Part shown: positions 49,834 to 64,000 of the stretch, one piece after another | Layout: every line of letters starts with the position of its first letter | How positions within the stretch are numbered: position 1 is the first letter of the stretch | Assembly: GCF_006539865.1 (NCBI RefSeq) | Contig: NZ_BJNV01000009.1 | Span: 62,001 to 126,000, forward strand | DNA from: Zoogloea ramigera | GTDB taxonomy: Bacteria; Pseudomonadota; Gammaproteobacteria; Burkholderiales; Rhodocyclaceae | Direction: 5' to 3' | Length of the DNA: 64,000 nt | Position numbers and translations under genes: made by a program | The notes under the pieces: generated by a model | What the model was told of the DNA's origin: nothing | Databases searched by the model: none | Seen by the model: the letters and a program-made list of their open reading frames with translations, nothing else

Positions 49834-50087
49834 GGGGTTTCTCCTTGATATTGAAAATGCTTGCCGTGCGGCATCTTAGCCGATCCCGGCGGTGGGGCGG
49901 GCCGCCGGCGGGCCGGGTGAAGGGTGGCGTCCGACTGTCAGGTTTTTTTACAGAGTGTTAAAAGCTGTTTTTAGGACTGTTGTTTTTATTGGATTTTTGT
50001 TCGCAGGCATCGTAATTGCATGAGCCCTCCCAAAAATAAGCTCCCCGGTTTTTCGCCGCGGGGCCACCAGACGGGAAGGAATGCAAA
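49834..50087. other. 254-base intergenic region upstream of the giant surface-protein gene
   Basis: The region is divergent between the MaoC gene and the giant gene. It contains an A+T-rich stretch from about 49940 to 50000 (TTTTTTTACAG, TGTTAAAAGCTG, TTTTTATTGG) that could hold the promoter. CCCCGGTTTTTCGCCGCGGGG then forms a small hairpin before the start codon. The ribosome binding site is GGGAAGGAATGC. No match to a named regulator site was found. Confidence 0.5.
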
Positions 50088-53000
50088 ATGGCTGCGGTTT
50101 ACGGTGAAGAGCGGGTCAATTACTACACGAACGACCACCAATATGGTGCCCAGGTGGCGGTGCTTGCCGGTGGGGGTTATGTCGTAAGCTGGGTCTCCCG
50201 CGGGCAGGACGGTAGTGACGACGGGATCTACGCCCAGCGCTACAACAGCGTGGGGATGCCGGTCGGTGCCGAGTTCCGGGTGAACAGCGCCACCGCCAAT
50301 GCGCAGATCCAGCCGACCATCGTAGGCCTCTCCGACGGTGGCTTCGTTGTCGCCTGGTCCGATCAGTACGCCGACGGCAGCAGCTGGGGCGTTTTTGCCC
50401 AGCGCTACGACGCCCACGGCGTGGCCCGGGGCAGCCAGTTCCTCGTCAACCAGACCACCCTCTACGACCAGGGCACGCCGGCCATTGCCGCGGTCGATGG
50501 CGGCTTCGTCGTCACCTGGGCTTCCCAGTACCAGGACGATGGCGGCAGCTACGGTGTGTACGCCCGCCGCTACGCCAACGACGGCAGCCCGAGCGGCGCC
50601 GAGTTTGCCGTCAACAGCACTGTGAGCGGCAACCAGAACGAGCCCGCGATTGCGGCCTTCGACGGCGGCGGCTTCGTCGTCGTGTGGCGCTCCGAAGGCC
50701 AGGACGGCAGCGGCGGTGGCGTCTATGCCCAGCGCTTCGATGCCGCCGGCGCCGCGCTCGGCGGCGAGTTCCGGGTCAACACCACCACCGATTCCAACCA
50801 GTCCGACGCCCACGTGGCGGTGCTTGCCGACGGCAGCTTCGTCGTGGTGTGGGCCGATGACGGCAGCCACGACGGTAGCGGTTACGGCGTCTATGCCCAG
50901 CGCTTCGATGCGGGCGGTAACCAACTCGGTGGCGAGTTCCTCGTCAATGGGAGCGTGATCAGCAGCCAGTACCAGCCGGCGGTCACCGCGCTGGCGAGCG
51001 GCGGCTTCGTGGTCAGCTGGTACAACGATTATTACGACGCGAGCGGCACCGGGTCGGCAGCAGACGTTTACGTGCGTGAGTACGCCGCCGACGGCTCCCC
51101 GGTCGGCGCCGAGGTGAAGGTCAATTCGCCTAGCGGCAGCTACTACCAGTACGAGCCGGCGATTGCCCACCTCGGCAGCGACAACTTCGTGGTCGTGTGG
51201 CGCTCGGACGGCCAGGACGGCTCCAACGCCGGCATCTATCAGCAGCTCTTCGGCTCGGCGGCCGAGCTGGTGCGGGGCAACGCAGCCCCGGTGCTCGCCG
51301 ATTTTGGTGGCACCGTCAGCTTCGACGAAAACGTGGTCAACGCCACGCCCCAGGTGCTCGACCCGCTGGTGAGCTTCTCGGCCCGGGCGGGCGCCAGCTT
51401 CGAAGGCGGCGTCGTCACCGTCTTTTACGTCAGCGGCGCGAGCCCGGCCGACCAGCTGTCGGTGCGCGGCACCGGCGACGGCGTGGGCGAGATCGGCGTG
51501 GCAGGCAGCGAAGTCCGCTACGGCGGCGTGGTGATCGGCGAGGTCTCGGGCGGCACCGCCGGCAGCGCGCTGCAGATCCGCCTGAATGCGGCGGCAGGCG
51601 CGGACGCCATCGAGGCGCTGGTGCAGGGCATCGCCTACGCCAACACCAGCTTCAGCCCCCTGGCCAGCCGCCAGGTGGGAGTCCGCATCGAGGACGGCAG
51701 CGGGGTGTCGACGGGCGGTGGCGTCGTCACGGTTAACGTGATTCGTGAAGAGGACGGCACGCCGGCCTTTGGCGGGGAAGATCCGGTCAATACCTATACC
51801 CAGGATCATCAGCTGAACCCGGCGATCGGCAAGCTGGCCGATGGCGGCTACGTGATCGCCTGGAGCTCCAACGGCCAGGACGGCTCCAGCTCGGGCATCT
51901 ACGCCCAGCGCTTCAGCGACGCGGGCGTGGCGGTGGGCCCGGAAGTGCGGGTTAACAGCGCGACGGCCGGCGAGCAGAGCTACCCGCAGGTGGCGGGCCT
52001 GTCGGACGGCGGCTACGTGATCGTGTGGCAGGACAACGCGAGTGCCGACGGCTCCGGCTGGGGCGTGCTGGGCCAGCGCTTTGGCGCCGACGGCAGCCCG
52101 GCAGGTGAGGCCTTCGTGGTGAACACCACAACCATCGGTTACCAGTTCCAGGGCGCCATCGCCAGCTACGCCGGCGGCTTTGCGGTGGTCTGGGCGAGCG
52201 ACAGCTACGTGCCGGGCGGCGACAGCGACGACATCTACCTCACCCGCTACGACAACGCCGGCAACGTGGTCGGCACCCCCGAGATGCGGGTCAGCGTCAA
52301 TCCGGGCAGCGCCGACGCCCAGTCCGGCAACCAGTACCTGCCGCGCATCGCCGCGCGGGCCAATGGCGACCTCGTCATCGTGTGGCGCGACGACAACGGC
52401 AACGACGGCAGCGGCTACGGTGTGTTCGGGCGCAGCTTTGATGCCGCCAGCGGCGGCTTCGGCGAGGTGTTCCAGGTCACCACCGTCACCAGCGGCAACC
52501 AGTACGAGCCCGATGTGGCGATGTTCGCCGATGGTAGCTTCGTGGTTGTGTGGCGCGACGACAACGGCCTCGACGGCTCGGGCGCGGGCACCTTCGGCCG
52601 GCGCTTCGACGCCGCGGGCGCCCCGCAGGGCGACGCCTTCCTCGTCAACGAAAACGCCACCGGCAGCCAGTTCCAGCCCAAGGTGACGGCCCTGTCGACC
52701 GGCGGCTTCGTGGTCGCCTTTTACAACGACACGGGCGACTACTGGGGTGACACCTACATCCGCGAGTTCGACGCGGCCGGCAACCCGGTCGACAGCGATC
52801 GCCGGGTGCACAGCGACGAAGTCGGGGCTTACCGCTACCAGTACGAACCGGCCATCACCGACCTGGGCAACGGCAGCTTCGTGGTCGCCTGGCGAGCCGA
52901 CAACAACGCCGATGGCAGCGGCATCTATCAGCAAGTCTTCGGCGACAGCGCTGCGCTTGGCCGGCAGGGCAACCCCGAGCTCTCCGGCTTCACCGGCGCG

Positions 53001-56000
53001 GTCAGCTTCATGGAAAACGCCGTCAACGGCGGCCTGCAGATCATCGACGCGGCGGTGAGCCTCAGCGACGTCGACTCGGCCGACTTCAGCGGCGGGCGGC
53101 TCGACCTCTACTACCTCAACGGCGGCGCGGCCGAAGACCAGCTCGGCGTGGTGGCCGGCGGTTTGATCAGCGTGGCGGGCAATGTGGTGAGCTACGCCGG
53201 TACGCCGATCGGCACCCTGAGCGGCGGTGCCAATGGTGAAAACCTGCGCATCGACCTGAGTGGCGCCGCCGCCACGGCCGACGCCGTGCAGGCGCTGGTG
53301 CAGCACCTGGGCTATGGCAACACCGACTTCAGCCCCAACGCCAGCCGCACGCTGGGCCTGCGCATCAGCGACGGGGATGGCGGGACGAGTGCGCCCAACG
53401 TGCTCACCCTCTACGTCGGCGACGAACTCGGCGGCACGCAGGCCCTTGGCGAGCAGGAGCAGGTCAATACCTATACGTCGGGTGAGCAGGTCAATCCTGC
53501 CATCGGCAAGCTCGCCGACGGCGGCTACGTGATCGCCTGGATCTCCAACGGCCAGGACGGCTCCGGCTGGGGCGTCCATGCCCAGCGCTTCAGCGCCGCG
53601 GGCGTGGCGGTGGGCCCGGAAATGCAGGTCAATACGGCCACCTACGGCGAGCAGAGCACCCCGCAGGTGGCGGGCCTGTCGGACGGCGGCTACGTGATCG
53701 TGTGGCAGGACAACGGCAGCGCCGACAGCTCCGGCTGGGGCGTGTTCGGCCAGCGTTTCGGGGCCGACGGCAGCCTGGCGGGCGGGCAGTTCGTGGTGAA
53801 CACCACCACCCTGGGCAGCCAGCTCTACCAGGCCGTCGCCAGCTACACCGGTGGCTTTGCGGTGGCCTGGTCGGCAGACGGTAACGTGTCGGGCGGTAAC
53901 GGCCACGACATCTACCTCACCTGCTTCGACAACGCCGGCAACATCGTCGGCACCCCCGAGATGCGGGTCAGCGTCAATCCGGGCACGACCGACGCCCAGT
54001 CCGGCTACCAATACATGCCGCGCATCGCCGCGCGGGCTGATGGCGACCTCGTCATCGTATGGCGCGACGACAGCGCCAGCGACGGCAGCGGCCACGGCGT
54101 CTACGGGCGCAGCTTTGATGCCGCCAGCGGCAGCTTCGGCGACGTGTTCCTGGTGAACACTGTCACCAGCGGCCACCAGTACGAACCCGACGTGGCGATG
54201 TTCGCCGACGGCAGCTTCGTGGTGGTGTGGCGCGACGACAACGCCCTCGACGGCTCGGGCACGGCCACCTTCGGCCGGCGCTTCGACGCCGCGGGCGTGG
54301 CCCTGGGCGACGCCTTCCTGGTCAACGAAAACACCTCGGGCAGCCAGTACCAACCCAAGGTGACGGCCCTGTCGACGGGCGGCTTCGTGGTCGCCTTCTA
54401 CAACGACACGGGCGACTACTGGGGCGACACCTACATCCGCGAATTCGATGCCGCGGGCAACCCGGTCGACAGCGATCGCCGGGTCAACGCCGACAGCGGG
54501 GCGGCCTACCGCAGCCAGTACGAGCCGGCCATCACCGACCTGGGCAACGGCAACTTCGTCGTTGCCTGGCGGGCCGACAACAACGCCGACGGCAGCGCCA
54601 GCGGCATCTACCAGCAAGTCTTCGGCGACGGCGCTGCGCTGGCGCGGCAGGGCGACCCCGACCTCTCCGACTTCACGGGCGCCGTCAGCTTCATGGAAAA
54701 CGCCGTCAACGGCGGCCTGCAGGTCATCGACGCGGCGGTGAGCCTCAGCGACGCTGACTCGGCCGACTTCAGCGGCGGGCGGCTCGACCTTTATTACCTC
54801 AGCGGCGGCACCGCCGCAGACCAGCTCGGCGTCGTCGCTGGCGGCCCGATCAGCGTGGCCGGCAACGTGGTGAGCTACGCCGGCACGCCGATCGGCACCC
54901 TGAGCGGTGGGGCCAACGGCACCAACCTGCGCATCGACTTCAGCGGCGCCGCCGCCACGGCCGACGCCGTGCAGGCGCTGGTGCAGCGCCTGGGCTACGC
55001 CAACCCCGACTCCAGCCCCAACGCCAGCCGCACGCTGGGCCTGCGCGTCAGCGACGGGGACGGTGGGGCGAGTGCGCCCAACGTGCTCACCATCACGGTG
55101 ACGCCCGAGGCCGACGGCACGCCGCCGGCCTACCCGCAAGATCAGGTCAACACCCATTTCGCAGGCGAGCAGACCGGCCCGGCGATCGGCAAACTGGCCG
55201 ATGGCGGCTACGTGATCGCCTGGACCTCCGCCGAGCAGGATGGCTCCAGCTGGGGCATCTACGCCCAGCGCTTCAGCGCCGCCGGCGTGGCGGTGGGCCC
55301 GGAAGTGCGGGTCAACACCGCGACGGCCGGCGAGCAGAGCTACCCTCAGGTGGCGGGCCTGTCGGATGGCGGCTACGTGATCACCTGGCAGGACCCCAAC
55401 GGAAACGACCTCAGCGGCTGGGGCGTGTTTGCCCAGCGCTACGATGCGGCCGGCAGCGCCGAGGGCAGCGCCTTCGTCGTCAGCACCACCACTCTGGGCT
55501 ATCAGCTGCACAGTGTGGTCGCCAGCCACGACCAGGGTTTCGTGGTGGCCTGGACGGCCGACACCAACGTGCCGGGCGGCAACGGCTACGACATCTACCT
55601 CACCCGCTTCGACAACGCCGGTAATGTGCTCGGCACGCCCGAGCAGCGGGTCAGCGTGAGCCCAGGCAGCGCCGACGCCCAGCCCGGCAGCCAGGATCTG
55701 CCGCGCATCGCGGCCCACGCCGACGGCAGCATGATGATCGTGTGGCGCGACAGCAACGGTAACGACGGCAGCGGCTGGGGCATCTTCGGGCGCAGCTTCG
55801 ACGCCGTCAGCGGCAGCTTCGGCAACACCGTCCAGATCAACAGCTACACCTACAGCACCCAGATCGACCCGGACGTGGCGGCCCTTGCAGGTGGCGGCTA
55901 CGTTGTGGTGTGGCGTGACGACAACGGGCGCGACGGCTCGGGCTACGCCACTTTTGCCCAACGCCTCGACGCCAGCGGCGCGCCGGTGGGCGGCGAGTTC

Positions 56001-59000
56001 CGCGTCAACGACAACGTGTCGGGCAACCAGTACATGGCCAAGGTCAGCGCCCTGCCGACGGGCGGCTTCGTGGTGGCCTTCTACAATGACACGGGTGAAT
56101 ACTGGGGCGACACCTACATTCGTGAGTTCGATGCCGCCGGCAACCCGGTGGATGGCGACCGGCGTGTTAACGACGACAGCGGTGCCACTTACCGCAACCA
56201 GTACGAGCCGGCCATTGCCGACCTGGGTAACGGTAACTTCGTGGTCGCCTGGCGGGCCGACGGTAACGCCGACGGCAGCGCCTCGGGGGTCTTCCAGCAG
56301 GTCTTCGGCGAAACGGTGGTGCGGCCTGGCGATACGCAGCCGGTGCTCGACGACCTGGCCCCGGCGGTCACCTTCGGGGTGGCCGACATGGCGGCCCCGC
56401 AAGTCATCGACAACGACCTTCAGGTGTCGGCCAACGCCAGCCTGGCGGGCGGCAGCCTGTGGGTGTATTTCACCAGCGGGGCAGGGGCCAGTGATGCGCT
56501 GTCGGTGCGCAGCGAGGGCAGCGGGGCCGGCCAGATCGGCGTCAGCGGCAGCCAGGTGAGCCACGGTGGCGTGGTGATCGGCAGCATTGCCGGCGGCAGC
56601 GCCGGCGCGCCGCTGGTGATCAGCCTCAACGCCAACGCCACGGCGGCCGCCGTGCGTGCGCTGGCCGAGAACATCAGCTACCAGTACACCGACGCCAGCG
56701 TGCCGGCTGGCACCACGCGCAGCGTGGCCTATCGGCTGTTCGACGGGGCGGGCATGGCCTCGGCCTCGCAGGAGATCGCGATCAGCCTGGCGGCCAGCGC
56801 GCCGGCGGCCAGCCTGGCCCTTAACGAGTTCACCCCGGTGGTCAACCTCACCGAGAGCCAGTCTCGCGTCGAGGCGGTGCTCGATGGCGCGGTGAGCCTC
56901 GTCCAGGGAGCGGGTAGCCTGGAAGGCGCGGAGCTGATGGTGTCCTTCGTTGGCAACGGTCGGCCGAGCGATGAGCTCGGCATCGTGGCCGACGGCAGCG
57001 GCGCGGGGCAGGTGGATGTCTCCGGGGCCAACGAGGTCAGCTACGAAGGCACCGTTATCGGCCGGATGAGCGGCGGGGAGCAGGGCAGCCCGATGTTCGT
57101 CGAGTTCAACGCGGCGGCGAGCGCCGAGGCGGTCGAGGCGGTCATCGAACACCTCAGCTACCAGAGCACCACCGAGGGGCCGCTGGCGAGCCGCGCGCTG
57201 GAGATCCGCCTGACGGACGCCAGCGGGGCGGCCACGGCCAGCACCGTCACCATCAACATCACCCCCGAGGCCAACGGCGCGGTGCCGCTCGCCGGCCAGG
57301 AGCGGGTCAATACCTACCTGCCCGGCGACCAGACCCATCCCGTCGTGGCCACCCTGGCCGACGGCAGCTACGTGGTGGTGTGGCAGTCCAACGGCCAGGA
57401 CGGCAGCTACTGGGGCGTCCACGGCCAGCACTTCACGGCGGCTGGCGTGCCCATCGGCGCCGAGTTCCAGGTGAATAGCTACACCACCAACAGCCAGAGT
57501 GAGGTGGCGGTCACGGCCCTGGCCGGTGGCGGTTTCGTGGTGGCGTGGCGCAGCGAGAACCAGGACAGCAGCTCCGGCGGCGTGTTCGCCCAGGTCTTCA
57601 GCGAGGCGGCCGAGCGGCTGGGGGCGGAGTTCCGTGTCAACACCGCCAGCAACTACGACCAGACCCACGCGGCGGTGGTCGGCCTGGCCGACGGCAGCTT
57701 CGTGGTGGCCTTTGCCGACCAGGTGCAGGACGGCAGCAGCTACGGCAGCTTCGCCCAGCGTTACGACGCGGGCGGCAATGCGCTGGGCAGCTATTTCCAG
57801 CTCAACACCTACACGGCTTACGAACAATACCTGCCCGCGCTCGCGGCCCTGCGCGACGACCCGGCCACGGCCGGCAGCAACGAGACGGGCTTTGTGGCGG
57901 TGTGGCGCTCGCAGTACCAGGACGGCTCCGGTGCCGGCATCTTCGGCCAGCGCTTCAATGCCGCCGGCGAGAAGCTGGGCAGCGAGTTCCAGGTCAATAC
58001 CAACCTCGTCGGCAACCAGTACAGCCCGACGGTGGCCACGCTGGCCAACGGCGATTTCGTGGTGGTGTGGTCGGATGAGTCCGATGCCTCTGTGCGCGGC
58101 CAGCGCTACACGGCGGGTGGTGCGGTGGTGGGCGGCGAGTTCGTCATCAATACGCCGGATTTCCCGTCGAACCATGAGCAGTATCCGCAGATCGCCGCGC
58201 TCGCCAACGGCGGCTTCGTGGTGGCCTGGGATGCGTACTACAACGTTACCGTCGGTGATTACTACAACGTCTGGGCCCAGCAGTTCGATGGGGCTGGCAA
58301 CAAGGTCGACGGCCCGCTGCTGCTCAGCGACAGCGCGGCCTACACCCAGATCTACCCGGCCATCACAGGGCTGACCGGTGGCGGTTTCGTGGCGGCCTGG
58401 GCCAATACTCACCTGGATCAGCCAGGCGTGGGCGATTACGGCGTGTATCAGCGCCTGTTCGGCACGGCGGGGGCGCCCGAGCGGCCGCTGAGCCCGCAGC
58501 TGCTGGATCTTGAATCCGAAGTCAGCTTTGCTGAAAACGCGGTCAACGCTGCGCCCCAGTTGCTCGACCCGGGCCTGCGCGTGGTGGAAGGGGCGTCGCC
58601 CAGCTTTAACGGTGGCGTGCTCACGGTGGCGGTGCTGCAAGGCTACGGCGGCGGTGAAGGCTATGACGCCGAAGGCCCCGGGCAGGACGTGTTTACGATT
58701 CTCCACGAGGGCAACGGCGCGGGGCAGGTTGGCGTGGCCGGCGCTGTCGTCAGCTTTGGCGGGGTGCAGGTGGGTACGCTGGAGGGCGGCCAGAACGGCC
58801 TCGCCCTGCAGGTGCATTTCAACGCGGCGGCCACGGCCGAGATCGTCGAGCAGGTGGCCGAGCGTCTGGCCTACCGCAACGTCTCGTCGGCCCCGGTCAC
58901 TTCGCGGCTGGTGGAGGTGGTGGTGAGCGATGGCCACGGCGGCCAGAGCGCAGCCCGCACCATCACCGTCAACGTGGCGGCCGAGACCGACGGTGGCGTG

Positions 59001-62000
59001 CCGCTGCTGGCGGGCGACACCCGCGTCAATACCTACACCACCGACAGCCAGATCTTCCCGACGGTCATCCATCTGTCCGGCCCGAGCGCGGGCCAGTACG
59101 TGGTGATCTGGCAGTCCAACGGCCAGGACTCCGACGGCTACGGCGTCTTCGCCCAACGTTACGACAGCAACGGCGCCGCCATCGGGCCCGAGTTCCAGGT
59201 GTCCACCACGACGCCGGGCAATCAGGGGGCCGACTCCGGCGTGCGCGCTGCTGCGCTGGCCGACGGCGGCTTCGTGGTCGCCTGGGAGGCACCCGACGGC
59301 TGGAGCCGCGGCATCTTTGCCCAGCGCTTCGATGCCACCGGCACGCCGGCGGGCAGCGAATGGCGGGTCAACCCCGCCGCCAGTTACGACCAGCTGCAAC
59401 CCACGCTCACCGGCCTCGCCGATGGCGGCTTCGTGATCGCCTACACCGAAGAAAACGCCGACGGCAACAGCTACGGCACCTTGTTTGTGCGTTACGACGC
59501 CGCCGGCGTGGCCCAGGGCGCGCCGGTGCTGATCAACGAAAATCCGGTGTGGGCTGGCACGGCCTTCACGGACGGCAACCAGTCTTTCCCGCAGCTGGCA
59601 GCCCTCGCGGGCGGTGGTTTCGTGGCCACCTGGCATTCCAACGGCCAGGACGGCAGCGCCTGGGGCATCTATGCCCGCCTGTTCGACGCCGATGGTGCGC
59701 CCGTCGGTGACAGCTTCCAGGTGCACACCACGGCCCTCGGTAGCCAGGAGCGCCCCGACGTGGCGACCCTCGCGAATGGCGACTTCGTGATCGTGTGGAC
59801 CAGCGACAACGACCCGGGCAGCGATGCCGAGGGCGTGTTCATGCAGCGCTTCACCGCCGCCGGGGTGCCGGTGGGGGCGGAGACGCTGGTCAACAACGGC
59901 TCCAGCGCCTCCCATTACGACGCCTACGCCCGCGTGACGGCCCTCGATACCGGCGGCTTCGTGGTCGCCTGGGAGGCGGGCGACGACTGGGGCCGCGGTT
60001 TCTACATCCAGCAGTACGACGCCGCCGGCAGCAAGGTGGATGGCCCCCAACGGGTGTCCCAGAACGGCACCAGCGACCAGAGCTACGGTGACGTGGAAGG
60101 CCTGCCCGGCGGGCGCTTCGTGGTTGCCTGGTCGGCCACCAACGATGACGCGGCCGGCGCCTGGGGCATCTACCAGAACGTCTATGGGGCCGCGGGTTCG
60201 GCGCTGCCGAACCGGGCGCCCGAGCTCGGCAATGTGGTCGCGAGCGTCGGCTTCCAGGAGAACAGCCTGGGTACGCCGCAACTCATCGATACCGCTATTG
60301 GCCTGTTCGACGGTGATTCGCCCGACTTTGCCGGCGGCCGGCTCACGGTCAGCGTGATCAGCGGCTATTCGAGCACCAACCAGGACATCGGCGACTATCG
60401 CGCCGACCAGGACAACTTCTCCATCCTCGACGAGACCACCGGCGGCAGCCCGGTCAATGTGATCGGCAGCCAGGTGCGCGTGGGCGCCACGGTGATCGGC
60501 ACCCTGGTCAGCGACGGCCAGGCCGGCCGTGATCTGGTGATCGAATTCAATGCCAGCGCCACCCAGCCCCTCGTCGAGCGGGTGATCGAGCGGCTCGCCT
60601 ACCGCAACCCGTCCTCCGACCCGGTGGCGAGCCGGCAGGTGAGCATCAGCCTGTCCGACGGTGATGGTGCCACCAGCACGCCGCAGGTGGTGCAGATCGT
60701 GGTGGCCCCCGAGGCCGACGGCGCACAGCCCCTGGGCCAGCCGGAGCTCGTCAATACCTACCAGACCTCCGAGCAGCTCCTGCCGGCCGCCGCCACGCTG
60801 GCGGATGGCGGCTACGTGATCGTCTGGCAGTCGGCCGGCGAGGATGGCTGGGACAACGCCATCGTCGGCCAGCGCTACGCGGCCAATGGCACGCCGGTGG
60901 GCAATGAGTTCAAGGTTAACGCCTACACGCCGGGCGCCCAGACCGCCCCGGCGGTCACCGGCCTCGCCGATGGCGGCTGGGTGGTGACCTACACCGACCA
61001 GTGGCGCGACGACAGCGGCTACTCGGTGTGGGCCCAGCGTTTCGACGCCGCGGGCAGCCCCGCGGGGGCCGAGTTCCGCGTCAATAGCTCGACCTCGGGC
61101 AGCCAGTACGACTCGGCGGTCAGCGCCCTCGGCGATGGCTTTGTCGTCGCCTGGTTCTCGGACGGCGAGCGGAGCGGCGAGTACTACGACATCTTCTTCC
61201 AGCGTTACGACGCGAGCGGCGTTGCGGTGGGCGTGGAAACCCGCGCCAACCAGGCTGTCGTCGGCAACCCCTACGCCTACCAGTTCGAGCCGGCCATCAC
61301 CGGCCTCGCCAACGGCAACATTGTCGTCACCTGGCGCAGCGAGGGCCAGGACGGCAGCAACTCCGGCGTGTATGCGCGGCTCTTCGACGGCCAGAGCGGC
61401 AACGCCCTGGGCACCGAGTTCCAGCTCAACCAATACACCACCGACTACCAGTACGCGCCGCGCATCGCCGCGGTGGGCGGCGGTTTTGTTGCGACCTGGG
61501 TTTCCCGCGGGCAGGACGGCAGCGGCGACGGCATCTACGCCCGTCGTTACGACGCCGCCGGCAATGCCCTGGGTGACGAGTTCCGCGTCAATGAGGCCAG
61601 CTCCAGCGAGCAGCGCAGCTCCGACATCGCCGCCACCGGTGACGGCGGCTTCGTGATCACCTGGCGCAATTACGGCGGCGATGAGGTCTACGCGCAGAAG
61701 TTCGACGCCACCGGCGCCCGCGTGGACGGGCAGATCGAGATCAGCAGCGCCGCCACCTACAGCGACGACGCACCGGTGGTGGCCGGCCTGGCTGGCAACG
61801 CCTTCGCGATCGCCTGGCAGGGCTACTACGACAACAACAGCAACGGCATCTTCCAGCGTGTGGTGGGCGAGCCCCAGGCCTTCGCCCACAGCGCTGCGCC
61901 GCAGATCGTCGACCTCGCGAGCAGCGTGAGCTTCCAGGAGAACGCCCTCAACGCCGCACCGCAGCTGATCGACGCCGGCATCGGCCTCCTCGATGTCGAT

Positions 62001-64000
62001 TCCACCAGCTTTGCCGGTGGCCGCCTCGACGTGAGCTTCCTCACCACCTACGGCGACCCCAACCAGTCCGGCATCCCGGGCCTCCGCGCCCAGGACCAGC
62101 TGGGCATCCGTCACCAGGGCATGGCCACCGAGCAGATCGGCGTGCTCGGCAACACCGTGTATTTCGGCGGTACGGCGATCGGCACGATCACTGGCAACGG
62201 CGCGAATGGCGGCTCGCTGGTGGTCAGCTTCAACGCCAACGCGACGCCCAACGCGGTGGAGCACCTGATCGAGAACCTCACCTACCAGAACTTCCTGTCC
62301 AACCCCGAGCCGAGCCGCACCGTGTCCCTGCGGCTGGCGGACGGCAGCGGTGGCGTCACGGCGCCGCTGGCGATCACCCTCGACATCGTCGCCAACCCCG
62401 ACGGGGCGGTGATGTATGGCGCCGAGCAGGTCGTCAGCCGCGTCGCTGGCAGTGGCAACCAGGCCGGCGACCAGGCGAACCCGGTCATGGCGATGCTCGA
62501 CGGCGGTGGTTATGTGGTCGCCTACACCGACACCAGCGGCCTCGACGGCAACGGCTACGGCATCTTCGCGCGCCGCTACGACGCCAACGACAACCCCCTG
62601 GGCGATCCCTTCCAGGTCAACCTCACCGGCCTGCACACCCAGGACGAGCCGGCGGTGGTCCGCCTGTCCGGCGGCGGTTTCGCGGTGGTGTGGACGTCCA
62701 ACGATTATCTGGTGGACAACTCGGGCGACGGCGTCTTCATGCGCCGCTACCTGGCCGACGGCAGCCCGGCGCCGGAGGGCGAGGTGCTCGTCAATACGTC
62801 CATCAGCGGCAACCAGTACCAGCCGGCGGTGAGCCAGAGCCAGGACGGCGGCTTCATCGTCGCGTGGTATTCCGACGGCGAGCGCGACGGCTCTTACTAC
62901 GATGTGTTCTTCCAGCGTTTCGACGCCAGCGGCAACAAGCTGGGCATCGAGACCCGGGCCAGCACCCCGGTGCCGGTGAACCCCTACATCGCCGAGTACG
63001 AGCCGGCGATCGCGCTGCTCAACGACAGCAGCGGCGACTTCGTGATCACCTGGACCGACAACACCGCCGATGGCAGCGCCAGCGGCATCTTCGGCCAGCG
63101 CTTCAATGCCGACGGCAGCGCCGACGGCGCGTCGTTCCGGGTGAACACCTACACCGACAGCAGCCAGGGCCAGTCCGCCGTGGCGGCGCTGGGTGGGGGC
63201 GCCTTCGTCGTGGTGTGGGCGTCCTACGGCCAGGATGGGTCTTACCAGGGCATTTATGGCCAGCGCTTTGATGGCGCCGGCACTCCCGCGGGGGCCGAGT
63301 TCCGGGTTAACTATTCGGTCTCCGGCGACCAGATCCGGCCTGCGGTGACGGGGCTCACCAACGGCGGCTTCGTCGTGACCTGGGACGACTACAGCAACGT
63401 GTGGCTGCAGCAGTACGACGCCAGCGGCCGCGCCATCGACAGCCAGGTGCCGATCAACAACGTCAGCACCGAATACGGCGCCGACGTGGTCGCCACCGCC
63501 GATGGCGGCTTCCTGGTGGCCTACACCGGTTATCGCGACACCGCCCATGGCGGCAACAACAGCTACGAAGTGCTGCTCCAGCGCTACAGCAACACCTCGC
63601 CGAAAGTCAGCGACGTGTCGGTGAGCGGCACTGAAGACACCGCCATCGTGCTCCTCGACAGCGTGTTCGCCGCCGGCTTCAGCGATGCCGACGGCCAGAC
63701 CCTGGCCGCCATCCGCATCGTCACCCTGCCGGCCTCCGGGGCGCTCACGCTCGACGGCGTGGCGGTCGCGCCGGGGCAGGAGATCAGCGTCGCCGACCTG
63801 GCCGCCGGCCGGCTCGTCTATCGCGGCACGGCCGATTTTGCCGGCGCCGACGCCTTCCGCTGGACAGGCAGCGACGGCAACGTGTTCTCCACCCAGTCGG
63901 TGTTCACCAACATCACGGTGAACAACGTGAATGACGGCCCGCGCCTCGAGGCCGGCCCCAACCGCGTGGCCGACGAGGGCCATTACTTCTCCCAGAGCCT
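50088..64000 (+). CDS. giant repetitive secreted/surface protein with eight predicted seven-bladed propeller blocks (partial, runs off right edge)
   Basis: A single frame stays open from the ATG at 50088 (AAGGAA upstream) to the window end: at least 4637 residues, with no stop. It starts MAAVYGEERVNYYTNDHQYG without a signal peptide, as expected of a type I-secreted protein whose export signal would lie in the unseen C-terminus. Eight blocks each hold exactly seven ~55-residue repeats built on the pattern GGFVVxWxSxGQDGSG, xGIYAQRFDAAG, then GxEFxVNxxTxGxQxxPAV. Each block opens with the VNTYTxxxQxxPAI strand and closes with a short repeat (xGIYQQVFG), the signature of beta-propeller closure. 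Spacers of about 150 residues (51291-51760, 52981-53450, 54661-55130, 56341-57295 double, 58496-59020, 60226-60745, 61906-62410) have VSFxENxVNxxPQxxD starts and cadherin/Ig-like SDGDGG ends. The last 130 residues are a cadherin-like domain. Likely an adhesin or matrix protein; the exact role is unknown. Confidence 0.85.
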   Translation, partial: MAAVYGEERVNYYTNDHQYGAQVAVLAGGGYVVSWVSRGQDGSDDGIYAQRYNSVGMPVGAEFRVNSATANAQIQPTIVGLSDGGFVVAWSDQYADGSSWGVFAQRYDAHGVARGSQFLVNQTTLYDQGTPAIAAVDGGFVVTWASQYQDDGGSYGVYARRYANDGSPSGAEFAVNSTVSGNQNEPAIAAFDGGGFVVVWRSEGQDGSGGGVYAQRFDAAGAALGGEFRVNTTTDSNQSDAHVAVLADGSFVVVWADDGSHDGSGYGVYAQRFDAGGNQLGGEFLVNGSVISSQYQPAVTALASGGFVVSWYNDYYDASGTGSAADVYVREYAADGSPVGAEVKVNSPSGSYYQYEPAIAHLGSDNFVVVWRSDGQDGSNAGIYQQLFGSAAELVRGNAAPVLADFGGTVSFDENVVNATPQVLDPLVSFSARAGASFEGGVVTVFYVSGASPADQLSVRGTGDGVGEIGVAGSEVRYGGVVIGEVSGGTAGSALQIRLNAAAGADAIEALVQGIAYANTSFSPLASRQVGVRIEDGSGVSTGGGVVTVNVIREEDGTPAFGGEDPVNTYTQDHQLNPAIGKLADGGYVIAWSSNGQDGSSSGIYAQRFSDAGVAVGPEVRVNSATAGEQSYPQVAGLSDGGYVIVWQDNASADGSGWGVLGQRFGADGSPAGEAFVVNTTTIGYQFQGAIASYAGGFAVVWASDSYVPGGDSDDIYLTRYDNAGNVVGTPEMRVSVNPGSADAQSGNQYLPRIAARANGDLVIVWRDDNGNDGSGYGVFGRSFDAASGGFGEVFQVTTVTSGNQYEPDVAMFADGSFVVVWRDDNGLDGSGAGTFGRRFDAAGAPQGDAFLVNENATGSQFQPKVTALSTGGFVVAFYNDTGDYWGDTYIREFDAAGNPVDSDRRVHSDEVGAYRYQYEPAITDLGNGSFVVAWRADNNADGSGIYQQVFGDSAALGRQGNPELSGFTGAVSFMENAVNGGLQIIDAAVSLSDVDSADFSGGRLDLYYLNGGAAEDQLGVVAGGLISVAGNVVSYAGTPIGTLSGGANGENLRIDLSGAAATADAVQALVQHLGYGNTDFSPNASRTLGLRISDGDGGTSAPNVLTLYVGDELGGTQALGEQEQVNTYTSGEQVNPAIGKLADGGYVIAWISNGQDGSGWGVHAQRFSAAGVAVGPEMQVNTATYGEQSTPQVAGLSDGGYVIVWQDNGSADSSGWGVFGQRFGADGSLAGGQFVVNTTTLGSQLYQAVASYTGGFAVAWSADGNVSGGNGHDIYLTCFDNAGNIVGTPEMRVSVNPGTTDAQSGYQYMPRIAARADGDLVIVWRDDSASDGSGHGVYGRSFDAASGSFGDVFLVNTVTSGHQYEPDVAMFADGSFVVVWRDDNALDGSGTATFGRRFDAAGVALGDAFLVNENTSGSQYQPKVTALSTGGFVVAFYNDTGDYWGDTYIREFDAAGNPVDSDRRVNADSGAAYRSQYEPAITDLGNGNFVVAWRADNNADGSASGIYQQVFGDGAALARQGDPDLSDFTGAVSFMENAVNGGLQVIDAAVSLSDADSADFSGGRLDLYYLSGGTAADQLGVVAGGPISVAGNVVSYAGTPIGTLSGGANGTNLRIDFSGAAATADAVQALVQRLGYANPDSSPNASRTLGLRVSDGDGGASAPNVLTITVTPEADGTPPAYPQDQVNTHFAGEQTGPAIGKLADGGYVIAWTSAEQDGSSWGIYAQRFSAAGVAVGPEVRVNTATAGEQSYPQVAGLSDGGYVITWQDPNGNDLSGWGVFAQRYDAAGSAEGSAFVVSTTTLGYQLHSVVASHDQGFVVAWTADTNVPGGNGYDIYLTRFDNAGNVLGTPEQRVSVSPGSADAQPGSQDLPRIAAHADGSMMIVWRDSNGNDGSGWGIFGRSFDAVSGSFGNTVQINSYTYSTQIDPDVAALAGGGYVVVWRDDNGRDGSGYATFAQRLDASGAPVGGEFRVNDNVSGNQYMAKVSALPTGGFVVAFYNDTGEYWGDTYIREFDAAGNPVDGDRRVNDDSGATYRNQYEPAIADLGNGNFVVAWRADGNADGSASGVFQQVFGETVVRPGDTQPVLDDLAPAVTFGVADMAAPQVIDNDLQVSANASLAGGSLWVYFTSGAGASDALSVRSEGSGAGQIGVSGSQVSHGGVVIGSIAGGSAGAPLVISLNANATAAAVRALAENISYQYTDASVPAGTTRSVAYRLFDGAGMASASQEIAISLAASAPAASLALNEFTPVVNLTESQSRVEAVLDGAVSLVQGAGSLEGAELMVSFVGNGRPSDELGIVADGSGAGQVDVSGANEVSYEGTVIGRMSGGEQGSPMFVEFNAAASAEAVEAVIEHLSYQSTTEGPLASRALEIRLTDASGAATASTVTINITPEANGAVPLAGQERVNTYLPGDQTHPVVATLADGSYVVVWQSNGQDGSYWGVHGQHFTAAGVPIGAEFQVNSYTTNSQSEVAVTALAGGGFVVAWRSENQDSSSGGVFAQVFSEAAERLGAEFRVNTASNYDQTHAAVVGLADGSFVVAFADQVQDGSSYGSFAQRYDAGGNALGSYFQLNTYTAYEQYLPALAALRDDPATAGSNETGFVAVWRSQYQDGSGAGIFGQRFNAAGEKLGSEFQVNTNLVGNQYSPTVATLANGDFVVVWSDESDASVRGQRYTAGGAVVGGEFVINTPDFPSNHEQYPQIAALANGGFVVAWDAYYNVTVGDYYNVWAQQFDGAGNKVDGPLLLSDSAAYTQIYPAITGLTGGGFVAAWANTHLDQPGVGDYGVYQRLFGTAGAPERPLSPQLLDLESEVSFAENAVNAAPQLLDPGLRVVEGASPSFNGGVLTVAVLQGYGGGEGYDAEGPGQDVFTILHEGNGAGQVGVAGAVVSFGGVQVGTLEGGQNGLALQVHFNAAATAEIVEQVAERLAYRNVSSAPVTSRLVEVVVSDGHGGQSAARTITVNVAAETDGGVPLLAGDTRVNTYTTDSQIFPTVIHLSGPSAGQYVVIWQSNGQDSDGYGVFAQRYDSNGAAIGPEFQVSTTTPGNQGADSGVRAAALADGGFVVAWEAPDGWSRGIFAQRFDATGTPAGSEWRVNPAASYDQLQPTLTGLADGGFVIAYTEENADGNSYGTLFVRYDAAGVAQGAPVLINENPVWAGTAFTDGNQSFPQLAALAGGGFVATWHSNGQDGSAWGIYARLFDADGAPVGDSFQVHTTALGSQERPDVATLANGDFVIVWTSDNDPGSDAEGVFMQRFTAAGVPVGAETLVNNGSSASHYDAYARVTALDTGGFVVAWEAGDDWGRGFYIQQYDAAGSKVDGPQRVSQNGTSDQSYGDVEGLPGGRFVVAWSATNDDAAGAWGIYQNVYGAAGSALPNRAPELGNVVASVGFQENSLGTPQLIDTAIGLFDGDSPDFAGGRLTVSVISGYSSTNQDIGDYRADQDNFSILDETTGGSPVNVIGSQVRVGATVIGTLVSDGQAGRDLVIEFNASATQPLVERVIERLAYRNPSSDPVASRQVSISLSDGDGATSTPQVVQIVVAPEADGAQPLGQPELVNTYQTSEQLLPAAATLADGGYVIVWQSAGEDGWDNAIVGQRYAANGTPVGNEFKVNAYTPGAQTAPAVTGLADGGWVVTYTDQWRDDSGYSVWAQRFDAAGSPAGAEFRVNSSTSGSQYDSAVSALGDGFVVAWFSDGERSGEYYDIFFQRYDASGVAVGVETRANQAVVGNPYAYQFEPAITGLANGNIVVTWRSEGQDGSNSGVYARLFDGQSGNALGTEFQLNQYTTDYQYAPRIAAVGGGFVATWVSRGQDGSGDGIYARRYDAAGNALGDEFRVNEASSSEQRSSDIAATGDGGFVITWRNYGGDEVYAQKFDATGARVDGQIEISSAATYSDDAPVVAGLAGNAFAIAWQGYYDNNSNGIFQRVVGEPQAFAHSAAPQIVDLASSVSFQENALNAAPQLIDAGIGLLDVDSTSFAGGRLDVSFLTTYGDPNQSGIPGLRAQDQLGIRHQGMATEQIGVLGNTVYFGGTAIGTITGNGANGGSLVVSFNANATPNAVEHLIENLTYQNFLSNPEPSRTVSLRLADGSGGVTAPLAITLDIVANPDGAVMYGAEQVVSRVAGSGNQAGDQANPVMAMLDGGGYVVAYTDTSGLDGNGYGIFARRYDANDNPLGDPFQVNLTGLHTQDEPAVVRLSGGGFAVVWTSNDYLVDNSGDGVFMRRYLADGSPAPEGEVLVNTSISGNQYQPAVSQSQDGGFIVAWYSDGERDGSYYDVFFQRFDASGNKLGIETRASTPVPVNPYIAEYEPAIALLNDSSGDFVITWTDNTADGSASGIFGQRFNADGSADGASFRVNTYTDSSQGQSAVAALGGGAFVVVWASYGQDGSYQGIYGQRFDGAGTPAGAEFRVNYSVSGDQIRPAVTGLTNGGFVVTWDDYSNVWLQQYDASGRAIDSQVPINNVSTEYGADVVATADGGFLVAYTGYRDTAHGGNNSYEVLLQRYSNTSPKVSDVSVSGTEDTAIVLLDSVFAAGFSDADGQTLAAIRIVTLPASGALTLDGVAVAPGQEISVADLAAGRLVYRGTADFAGADAFRWTGSDGNVFSTQSVFTNITVNNVNDGPRLEAGPNRVADEGHYFSQS
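50100..51290 (+). repeat. propeller block 1 (seven repeats)
   Basis: Seven repeats, from VAVLAGGGYVVSWVSRGQDG to FVVVWRSDGQDGSNAGIYQQ. The opening NYYTNDHQYGAQ strand is the part missing from repeat 7. Confidence 0.75.
51775..52980 (+). repeat. propeller block 2 (seven repeats)
   Basis: Opens VNTYTQDHQLNPAIGKLADG and closes RADNNADGSGIYQQVFG. Block 3 is nearly the same in DNA sequence, displaced by 1677 bases. Confidence 0.75.
53455..54660 (+). repeat. propeller block 3 (seven repeats)
   Basis: A recent tandem duplicate of block 2 (for example CGGTGGGCCC at 51931 and 53608). It opens VNTYTSGEQVNPAIGKLADG and closes GSASGIYQQVFG. Confidence 0.75.
55135..56340 (+). repeat. propeller block 4 (seven repeats)
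   Basis: Third member of the duplicated set, 1683 bases after block 3 (CGGTGGGCCC at 55291). It opens VNTHFAGEQTGPAIGKLADG and closes GSASGVFQQVFG. It has diverged more than blocks 2 and 3, and is followed by a double spacer. Confidence 0.72.
57296..58495 (+). repeat. propeller block 5 (seven repeats)
   Basis: Opens ERVNTYLPGDQTHPVVATLA and closes VGDYGVYQRLFG. Repeat 4 carries a short insertion (RDDPATAGSNETG), the only notable length change. Confidence 0.72.
59021..60225 (+). repeat. propeller block 6 (seven repeats)
   Basis: Opens TRVNTYTTDSQIFPTVIHLS and closes GAWGIYQNVYG, with seven WxS/WEA-type repeats between. Confidence 0.72.
60746..61905 (+). repeat. propeller block 7 (seven repeats)
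   Basis: Opens LVNTYQTSEQLLPAAATLAD and closes NNSNGIFQRVVG; seven repeats in between, including two with GxxYYDIFFQRYD-type variants. Confidence 0.72.
62411..63605 (+). repeat. propeller block 8 (seven repeats)
   Basis: Opens EQVVSRVAGSGNQAGDQANP and has seven repeats. It closes NSYEVLLQRYSNTSP, after which the sequence changes to a cadherin-like domain instead of another ENxVN spacer. Confidence 0.7.
63606..64000 (+). other. cadherin-like domain at the window edge
   Basis: KVSDVSVSGTEDTAIVLLDS, then GFSDADGQTLAAIRIVTLPA, LTLDGVAVAPGQEISVADLA and RGTADFAGADAFRW, ending NITVNNVNDGPRLEAG. This is the VxEDTxxxxS...FAGxDxFxW...VNNVNDxP pattern of bacterial tandem cadherin-like repeats that bind calcium in large adhesins. 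It is cut by the window end. Confidence 0.75.

Follow-up and report, generated by a model that had tools for sequence, protein, structure and literature searches.

The protein nearest in function to the one described here that has been tested experimentally is BapP of Pseudoalteromonas tunicata. In the available text of its report, BapP is a large predicted calcium-dependent adhesin of 1600 aa with a predicted Sec signal, one five-bladed N-terminal propeller, twelve Ig-like domains and type I secretion genes directly downstream; its deletion lowers biofilm, so that normal biofilm formation by Pseudoalteromonas depends on this Bap adhesin (PMC12153261). CylK, according to the accessible part of the source, has its active site between an N-terminal domain and a propeller, and its homologues were gathered above 24% identity (PMC8916777). 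A search of open-licence papers found no bacterial chain of several propellers, only the single-propeller BapP. The animal receptors LRP1 and LRP2 do carry several propellers, six-bladed and of the YWTD kind, with EGF and LDLa spacers. Archaeal surface-layer proteins reportedly combine beta-propeller and PKD domains, a finding said to be that of Jing et al. in 2002, and archaeal propeller-PKD surface proteins use YVTN repeats. Adhesins of the LapA/BapA type, finally, have an acidic, almost Cys-free composition, which is also that of the gene product considered below: its 5329 aa contain 591 D and E, 212 K and R and a single Cys.

Gene A and its blocks of seven repeats

The window analysed here comprises 64,000 nt of Zoogloea ramigera, namely bases 62001-126000 of contig C9 in a draft genome of 4.6 Mb. 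Gene A starts in it at 50088 on the forward strand and reads through to 63998 (4637 aa) with no stop before the window end. The preliminary description had taken 50088..64000 as the span of the repeat protein; one giant ORF is indeed found there, but the repeats stop at 63593, a cadherin-like domain comes next and the gene runs past the window (Table 1). At the end of contig C9, at 128075, gene A has reached at least 5329 aa and its frame is still open, with no stop, the contig breaking off within a PKD-type part. Only 4-6 residues stand before propeller 1, which starts at residue 5-7, and by eye no hydrophobic signal was seen at the start of the gene. The nine ORFs scanned upstream are ordinary genes, including pheS, pheT, an M48 peptidase and a MaoC-like protein, and a scan 5′ of gene A found no promoter or terminator. 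The opposite strand holds an ORF of 4665 aa across gene A (window 49986-63983, reverse strand). Because TTA, CTA and TCA are absent from all 5329 codons of gene A, antisense stops cannot arise in that phase, and we rejected this ORF as a gene, regarding it as a by-product of gene A codon use.

Table 1. Features of gene A within the window (positions counted from its first base).
Feature	Coordinates	Strand	Remark
Gene A	50088..64000	+	giant ORF, start MAAVYGEERVN...
Propeller 1	50100..51266	+	7 units, 389 aa
Spacer 1	51267..51773	+	169 aa; modelled mostly beta with a short helix
Propeller 2	51774..52952	+	7 units
Spacer 2	52953..53447	+	165 aa
Propeller 3	53448..54632	+	7 units, repeat profile
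Spacer 3	54633..55133	+	167 aa
Propeller 4	55134..56315	+	7 units, repeat profile
Double spacer	56316..57290	+	325 aa, two spacer domains, splits the chain 4 + 4
Propeller 5	57291..58472	+	7 units, repeat profile
Spacer 5	58473..59009	+	179 aa
Propeller 6	59010..60203	+	7 units, repeat profile
Spacer 6	60204..60737	+	178 aa
Propeller 7	60738..61877	+	7 units, repeat profile
Spacer 7	61878..62420	+	181 aa
Propeller 8	62421..63593	+	7 units, repeat profile
Cadherin-like domain	63594..64000	+	Cadherin_5 E 8e-4, tandem-95 E 1.2e-7, both below cut-off

A 55-position repeat profile was made from the units of gene A and of its paralogue, gene B (L010, contig C6, 1-12342, reverse strand, 4114 aa, cut by the contig end). 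It detects 56 units in gene A, arranged as eight blocks of exactly seven and all within the window, and 42 units in gene B, as six blocks of seven. Individual units of gene A score 26-80 bits, the profile itself being derived from them; given these scores and the positional likeness described below, we do not regard the pattern as due to chance. Each block starts with an 'xVNxxTxxxQxxP' strand, and its last unit breaks off before that strand recurs; of the 55 profile positions, the last unit reaches 46-54 in gene A's eight blocks and 41-51 in gene B's six. This confirms the earlier count, made by reading the letters, of eight blocks with seven repeats each, a repeat being some 55 residues long, and the unit boundaries agree equally with the remark that blocks begin with the terminal strand and end with a repeat lacking it. 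Over the 98 units of both genes the conserved residues are Asn (76%), Gln (91%) and Asp (84%).

A wider count took in 39 loci with 103 clusters of at least three units (smaller ones were dropped), from which six at a contig or frame end were excluded. Exactly seven units were detected in 83 of the 97 clusters left, while six have six units and a one-unit gap and two, from Pantoea, have 13 units where 14 fit, which we read as two propellers without a spacer between them. The six clusters that deviate belong to L013 (3, 5 and 6 units), L024 (5), L076 (6) and L099 (6); the L013 deviants are fragments spread over three reading frames of a single draft contig, and the missing first unit of L099, from Rhodovulum P5, sits in another frame. 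L049 and L050 in this set are near duplicates, L012 was omitted (its contig is identical to that of L049), and L114 (seven blocks of seven, one of six), L116 (one of seven) and L112 (a 49-unit run) stand outside the 97; matching contigs left out of the block counts include G008:C197, G017:C136 and G529:C275. In G704, 49 consecutive units run without a recognised spacer, and by eye their scores recur roughly with period seven. Lone seven-unit domains also occur next to unrelated domains in other proteins.

The predicted structure of block 1 is confident, closed and toroidal, and in structural comparison its residues 1-389 match a full solved seven-bladed domain. When two propellers and the spacer between them were modelled together (pTM 0.48, a model that does not define the relative placement of the domains), block 2 was likewise predicted to be a seven-bladed propeller. 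The earlier proposal of seven-bladed propellers is therefore well supported by prediction: we have good confidence, from these models, that each of the first two blocks forms a closed beta-propeller of seven blades, and the other six blocks of gene A, judged by their sequence, are probably propellers too. Velcro closure, in which the last blade is completed by the N-terminal strand, would be consistent with the unit boundaries, the strand list and the whole-propeller match. The nearest solved fold to block 1 is that of CylK, and many further structural matches are sialidases and polysaccharide lyases. Sequence and profile searches gave no match to any solved chain at E < 0.1 (best 0.55, 0.15 and 0.18), and even with E allowed to reach 10 CylK was not among the chains matched; a relationship to CylK by sequence was thus not found, and we keep the resemblance as a structural one. 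The conserved Asn, Gln and Asp of the units make blade-bridging calcium sites like those of CylK plausible.

Spacers, equal arms and the copying of whole propellers

Spacers in gene A measure 165-181 aa, save for the 325 aa between blocks 4 and 5. They had been called cadherin- or Ig-like; the modelled one is mostly beta with a short helix, and no Pfam or NCBIfam match over cut-off covers any spacer, so that the label stays tentative. The cadherin-like and PKD domains that were recognised sit 3′ of the last propeller.

The most surprising part of the finding is the layout of the arrays. With propellers denoted by 7 and spacer domains by S, the order 7S7S7S7 SS 7S7S7S7 is found in gene A, in a gene on contig C32 of the Zoogloea genome G021, in G766 (where one block has six detected units and a spacer is longer by about one unit) and in a plasmid gene of Rhodobacteraceae SC52, and 7S7S7 SS 7S7S7 in gene B and Rhodovulum P5; a G021 gene on contig C13 is the exception (7S7 SSS 7S7S7S7). 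Six of the seven complete spacer-bearing arrays therefore have equal arms around one doubled spacer, a lead and not a statistic, as the arrays were found through likeness to the query and not all matches were fetched. The SC52 and Rhodovulum arrays come from complete plasmid records. Two arrays are cut at an end (L014 with four propellers before and at least two after the doubled spacer, G007 with at least two before and four after), the two-propeller proteins L066, L074 and L102 were left outside spacer scoring, and Pantoea and G704, in which no spacer domain was seen, fall outside the equal-arms rule. We note that in Rhodovulum P5 (L099, 12694-12960 and 12954-26072) the first blade lies in a separate small hypothetical gene, which masks the start of the 3+3 chain.

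Equal arms occur in two classes of Pseudomonadota, G766 belonging to the class of the window and to a different order. Blocks do not match one to one among the Zoogloea, SC52 and G766 proteins, so that the n + n layout may either be ancient or have emerged several times. A Zoogloea gene went from 3+3 to 4+4 by the gain of one propeller in each arm, and this gain, together with the presence of equal arms in two classes, may hint that the arms pair or fold back and do not form a simple string. One could then see here the grammar of an unnamed family (n propellers, a doubled-spacer hinge, n propellers, a stalk, type I export), with the paired arms as a symmetric, length-adjustable hairpin or two-armed clamp. 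This idea, the pairing of the arms included, is tentative, and we would not back it at even odds or near them.

Blades also resemble one another by position. Identity between units from different blocks of the two genes, A and B, is 0.444 when they share a position and 0.368 when they do not; 65 of the 98 units find their closest partner in another block at the equivalent position, and none of 500 position shuffles reached the observed mean. Propellers were thus copied whole. At the DNA level, gene A has 87% identity between blocks 2 and 3, and 78% between block 4 and either of these. Blocks 2 and 3 are both closest to block 2 of gene B, and blocks 5 and 6 to its block 4. In the G021 gene on C32, a relative of gene B, modules 2 and 3 (a module being a propeller with the spacer after it) are 99.94% identical over 1698 nt, and propellers 5 and 6, whose identity rounds to 100%, drop to 92.6% once the following spacers are included; such copy numbers, coming from draft contigs, are provisional. 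Positional conservation and the 99.94% repeat show that the item copied is the propeller, not the blade.

Gene ends, secretion genes and occurrence

Beyond the window, PKD_4 matches gene A with 89.9 bits (cut-off 27). Searching its own genome with this PKD-type part gave nothing past the two known contigs, and the 3′ end of gene A itself was not found there; the same search in the genus led to 3′ ends on contigs of G021, G007 and G018. We infer from their PKD likeness that they terminate genes of gene A's family, as no contig spans a whole gene. These tails hold PKD_4 and three or four cadherin-like domains, and a 220-aa C-terminal end is common to the three Zoogloea tails, the other two being 81% and 73% identical to the G021 version.

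The preliminary description had proposed to look for RTX repeats and for a type I secretion operon once the 3′ part of the gene was at hand. RTX did not appear, with no family match at E 0.01 in any of the three Zoogloea 3′ ends, but secretion genes follow one of them, and their order is repeated at the start of another contig of the gene A genome. After the G007 end come, on the same strand, a small ORF with a PEP-CTERM-like tail (by eye), a PrtD-type ABC transporter (TIGR01842, 666.4 bits, cut-off 510.15) and HlyD (TIGR01843, 375.1 bits, cut-off 208.65). Contig C7 (L103, 100-3871) opens in the same order with a PEP-CTERM-like ORF (by eye; no NCBIfam match at E 1e-20), a PrtD-type ABC transporter (672.5 bits) and HlyD (378.4 bits), and may adjoin gene A or gene B. 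HlyD-type scores 3′ of the G021 end are far below cut-off, and no secretion genes were seen by eye 3′ of the G018 end. Elsewhere, G766, with eight propellers, carries ABC and HlyD genes further 3′, in the orientation and on the contig of the giant gene (621.1 and 382.5 bits), the record being discontinuous in between; in Pantoea agglomerans, TolC, ABC and HlyD stand directly behind the gene (ABC 741.1 bits, cut-off 693.1); and SC52, Rhodovulum and Azospirillum show RTX-like letters by eye and, by their annotation, lack adjacent secretion genes. In total, secretion genes adjoin three of the eight gene ends examined (G007, G766 and Pantoea, not G021, G018, SC52, Rhodovulum or Azospirillum).

Two further type I secretion loci of the genome, of LssB type, lie beside large adhesin-like genes cut by the contig end (L094 on C12, 7787-13016, and L093 on C94, 9552-13681), and the large gene at the C12 locus starts, by eye, like a LapA-type retention module. 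We rejected both as the exporter of gene A, each adjoining its own large gene, and the PrtD-type locus on C7 is preferred because of its gene order. Contig C64 carries another giant ORF (L104, 7451-19999, reverse strand, at least 4183 aa) with ABC- and HlyD-like ORFs behind it by eye, the ABC scoring 336.8 bits to LssB; the block-1 query had no match on this contig.

The block-1 query matches in 14 of the 23 genomes of the genus Zoogloea, its own included, and in 40 of 72,556 plasmid records; the block profile at E 1e-15 has matches in 28 genomes of a 399-genome sample of the order, and in 34 of a 398-genome sample of the phylum. Many of the matches fetched are single propellers within other large proteins, some with RTX-like ends by eye and some with a start that we take to be LEPR-XLL-like; in L017 and L018 the propeller is fused to a metallophosphoesterase-like part, and in L015, from Microvirga, it lies beside RTX-like letters (by eye). 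One large protein on G051:C18 (L072, L079) combines a seven-unit propeller of gene A's kind with delta-60-like repeats. A 26,117-aa open frame with a propeller is reported in L116 (G511:C1), a length made unreliable by unreadable parts of the record.

Proposed function and comparison with known systems

A role as adhesin or matrix protein is a reasonable reading, drawn from the architecture, from BapP as a precedent and from the secretion genes that some relatives carry. With a probability of about two in three, we propose that gene A encodes a giant extracellular protein of this sort, type-I-secreted and calcium-stabilised, whose multivalent propellers hold flocs together. Its tail would continue as in the three other Zoogloea, with PKD and cadherin-like domains and the conserved 220-aa C-terminal end. 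Having no Sec signal by eye, the protein would leave the cell through type I secretion, probably by a PrtD/HlyD-type pair such as that behind the gene end in a sister genome. Calcium may stabilise the propellers, by analogy with CylK; these would offer repeated multivalent binding faces by which polysaccharide or adjacent cells are held within flocs, the PKD tail acting as a stalk, and chain length would evolve through copying of whole propellers plus spacers. No LapA-type retention module that could account for surface anchoring was seen: the family matches of gene A at E up to 10 include no N-terminal module of this class.

Could the chain cover the cell instead of gluing cells? The archaeal surface-layer proteins, which are said to pair a beta-propeller with PKD domains, are a precedent for such an S-layer-like or structural coat, yet a design that matches in 14 of 23 genomes of the genus is not universal, the size and the secretion context of the relatives look adhesin-like, and we find a coat improbable. 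Catalysis, in which the secreted chain would be an enzyme in many copies that attacks polymers of the matrix in the manner of a sialidase, a lyase or CylK, draws on the enzymes among the structural matches, CylK foremost, and on the metallophosphoesterase-like fusions (L017, L018, by eye). It is also unlikely: the sequence and profile searches point to no solved chain at E < 0.1, fourteen propellers in two genes suit multivalent binding better, and propeller 1 is preceded by no partner domain such as the one that, in the available text, borders the active site of CylK together with its propeller (PMC8916777). The fold itself could be doubted, the units being tandem repeats such as solenoids also use, the profile being able to miss units, and 6 of 97 clusters failing to yield seven; seven would then be incidental to an open solenoid or to separate beta-sandwiches. 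Against this stand the confident closed model with its match over the full seven-bladed domain, the 83 clusters of exactly seven and the single seven-unit domains adjoining unrelated domains, which leave that view next to no credence.

As an adhesin or matrix protein, gene A would bear on the flocs of Zoogloea, which underlie activated sludge treatment, and for which exopolysaccharide and PEP-CTERM proteins are reported, in the accessible text of the sources, to be required (PMC9012009; PMC9850573). The giant propeller chain is a direct candidate for a polysaccharide-holding protein, and a related gene end has secretion and PEP-CTERM-like genes behind it. A predicted structure is now available for a propeller family that no Pfam model took over cut-off. 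The arrays also provide a series in which blade number is fixed and propellers multiply, whereas other propellers, in the available part of PMC9218822, are described as having been amplified one blade at a time.

The preliminary description knew of no named family with this architecture. No Pfam, NCBIfam or PHROGs family indeed exceeds its cut-off for the window protein or block 1, but the design is already present in public records under generic names. Scattered weak matches (CopC, Kre9, LTD and others) were treated as chance. NF053835 (PDIAV motif-containing lipoprotein) was the family with the largest number of matching blocks, 17 out of 24 when E values up to 1 are counted, with a best E of 1e-12; it is a lipoprotein model that names no structure, and the window protein (E 0.0053, 16.2 bits) is far below its cut-off of 90, for which reason membership was rejected. 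The delta-60 repeat (TIGR02608) has no clear support as parent family, with an hhalign probability of 5.8% (E 0.0066) against four delta-60-like units only and one block of 24 at E 0.014.

Some likenesses are of layout only, as with LRP1 and LRP2, where multiple propellers are split by small domains as here but are six-bladed, and with the archaeal surface proteins, where propellers are joined with PKD domains. The C-terminal domain of CylK (PDB 7ron, 7roo, 7fh6-7fh8) resembles block 1 in structure, with 12% identity over the structural alignment, whereas CylK as described in the text at hand is an enzyme with its own N-terminal calcium-binding domain and one propeller, and no such domain precedes propeller 1 (PMC8916777). 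With the RTX adhesins of the LapA/BapA type, gene A shares giant size, repeated beta domains and secretion genes near some relatives, and it differs in that no retention module was seen, the Zoogloea tails gave no RTX match and the repeats are propellers. BapP, by the available account, is likewise large and propeller-bearing, with Ig- or cadherin-like domains and secretion genes behind; unlike it, genes A and B alternate six to eight seven-bladed propellers with spacers, and no Sec signal is seen by eye (PMC12153261). The beads-on-a-string design, which has no name, occurs in distant bacteria as well and likely serves to keep cells together.
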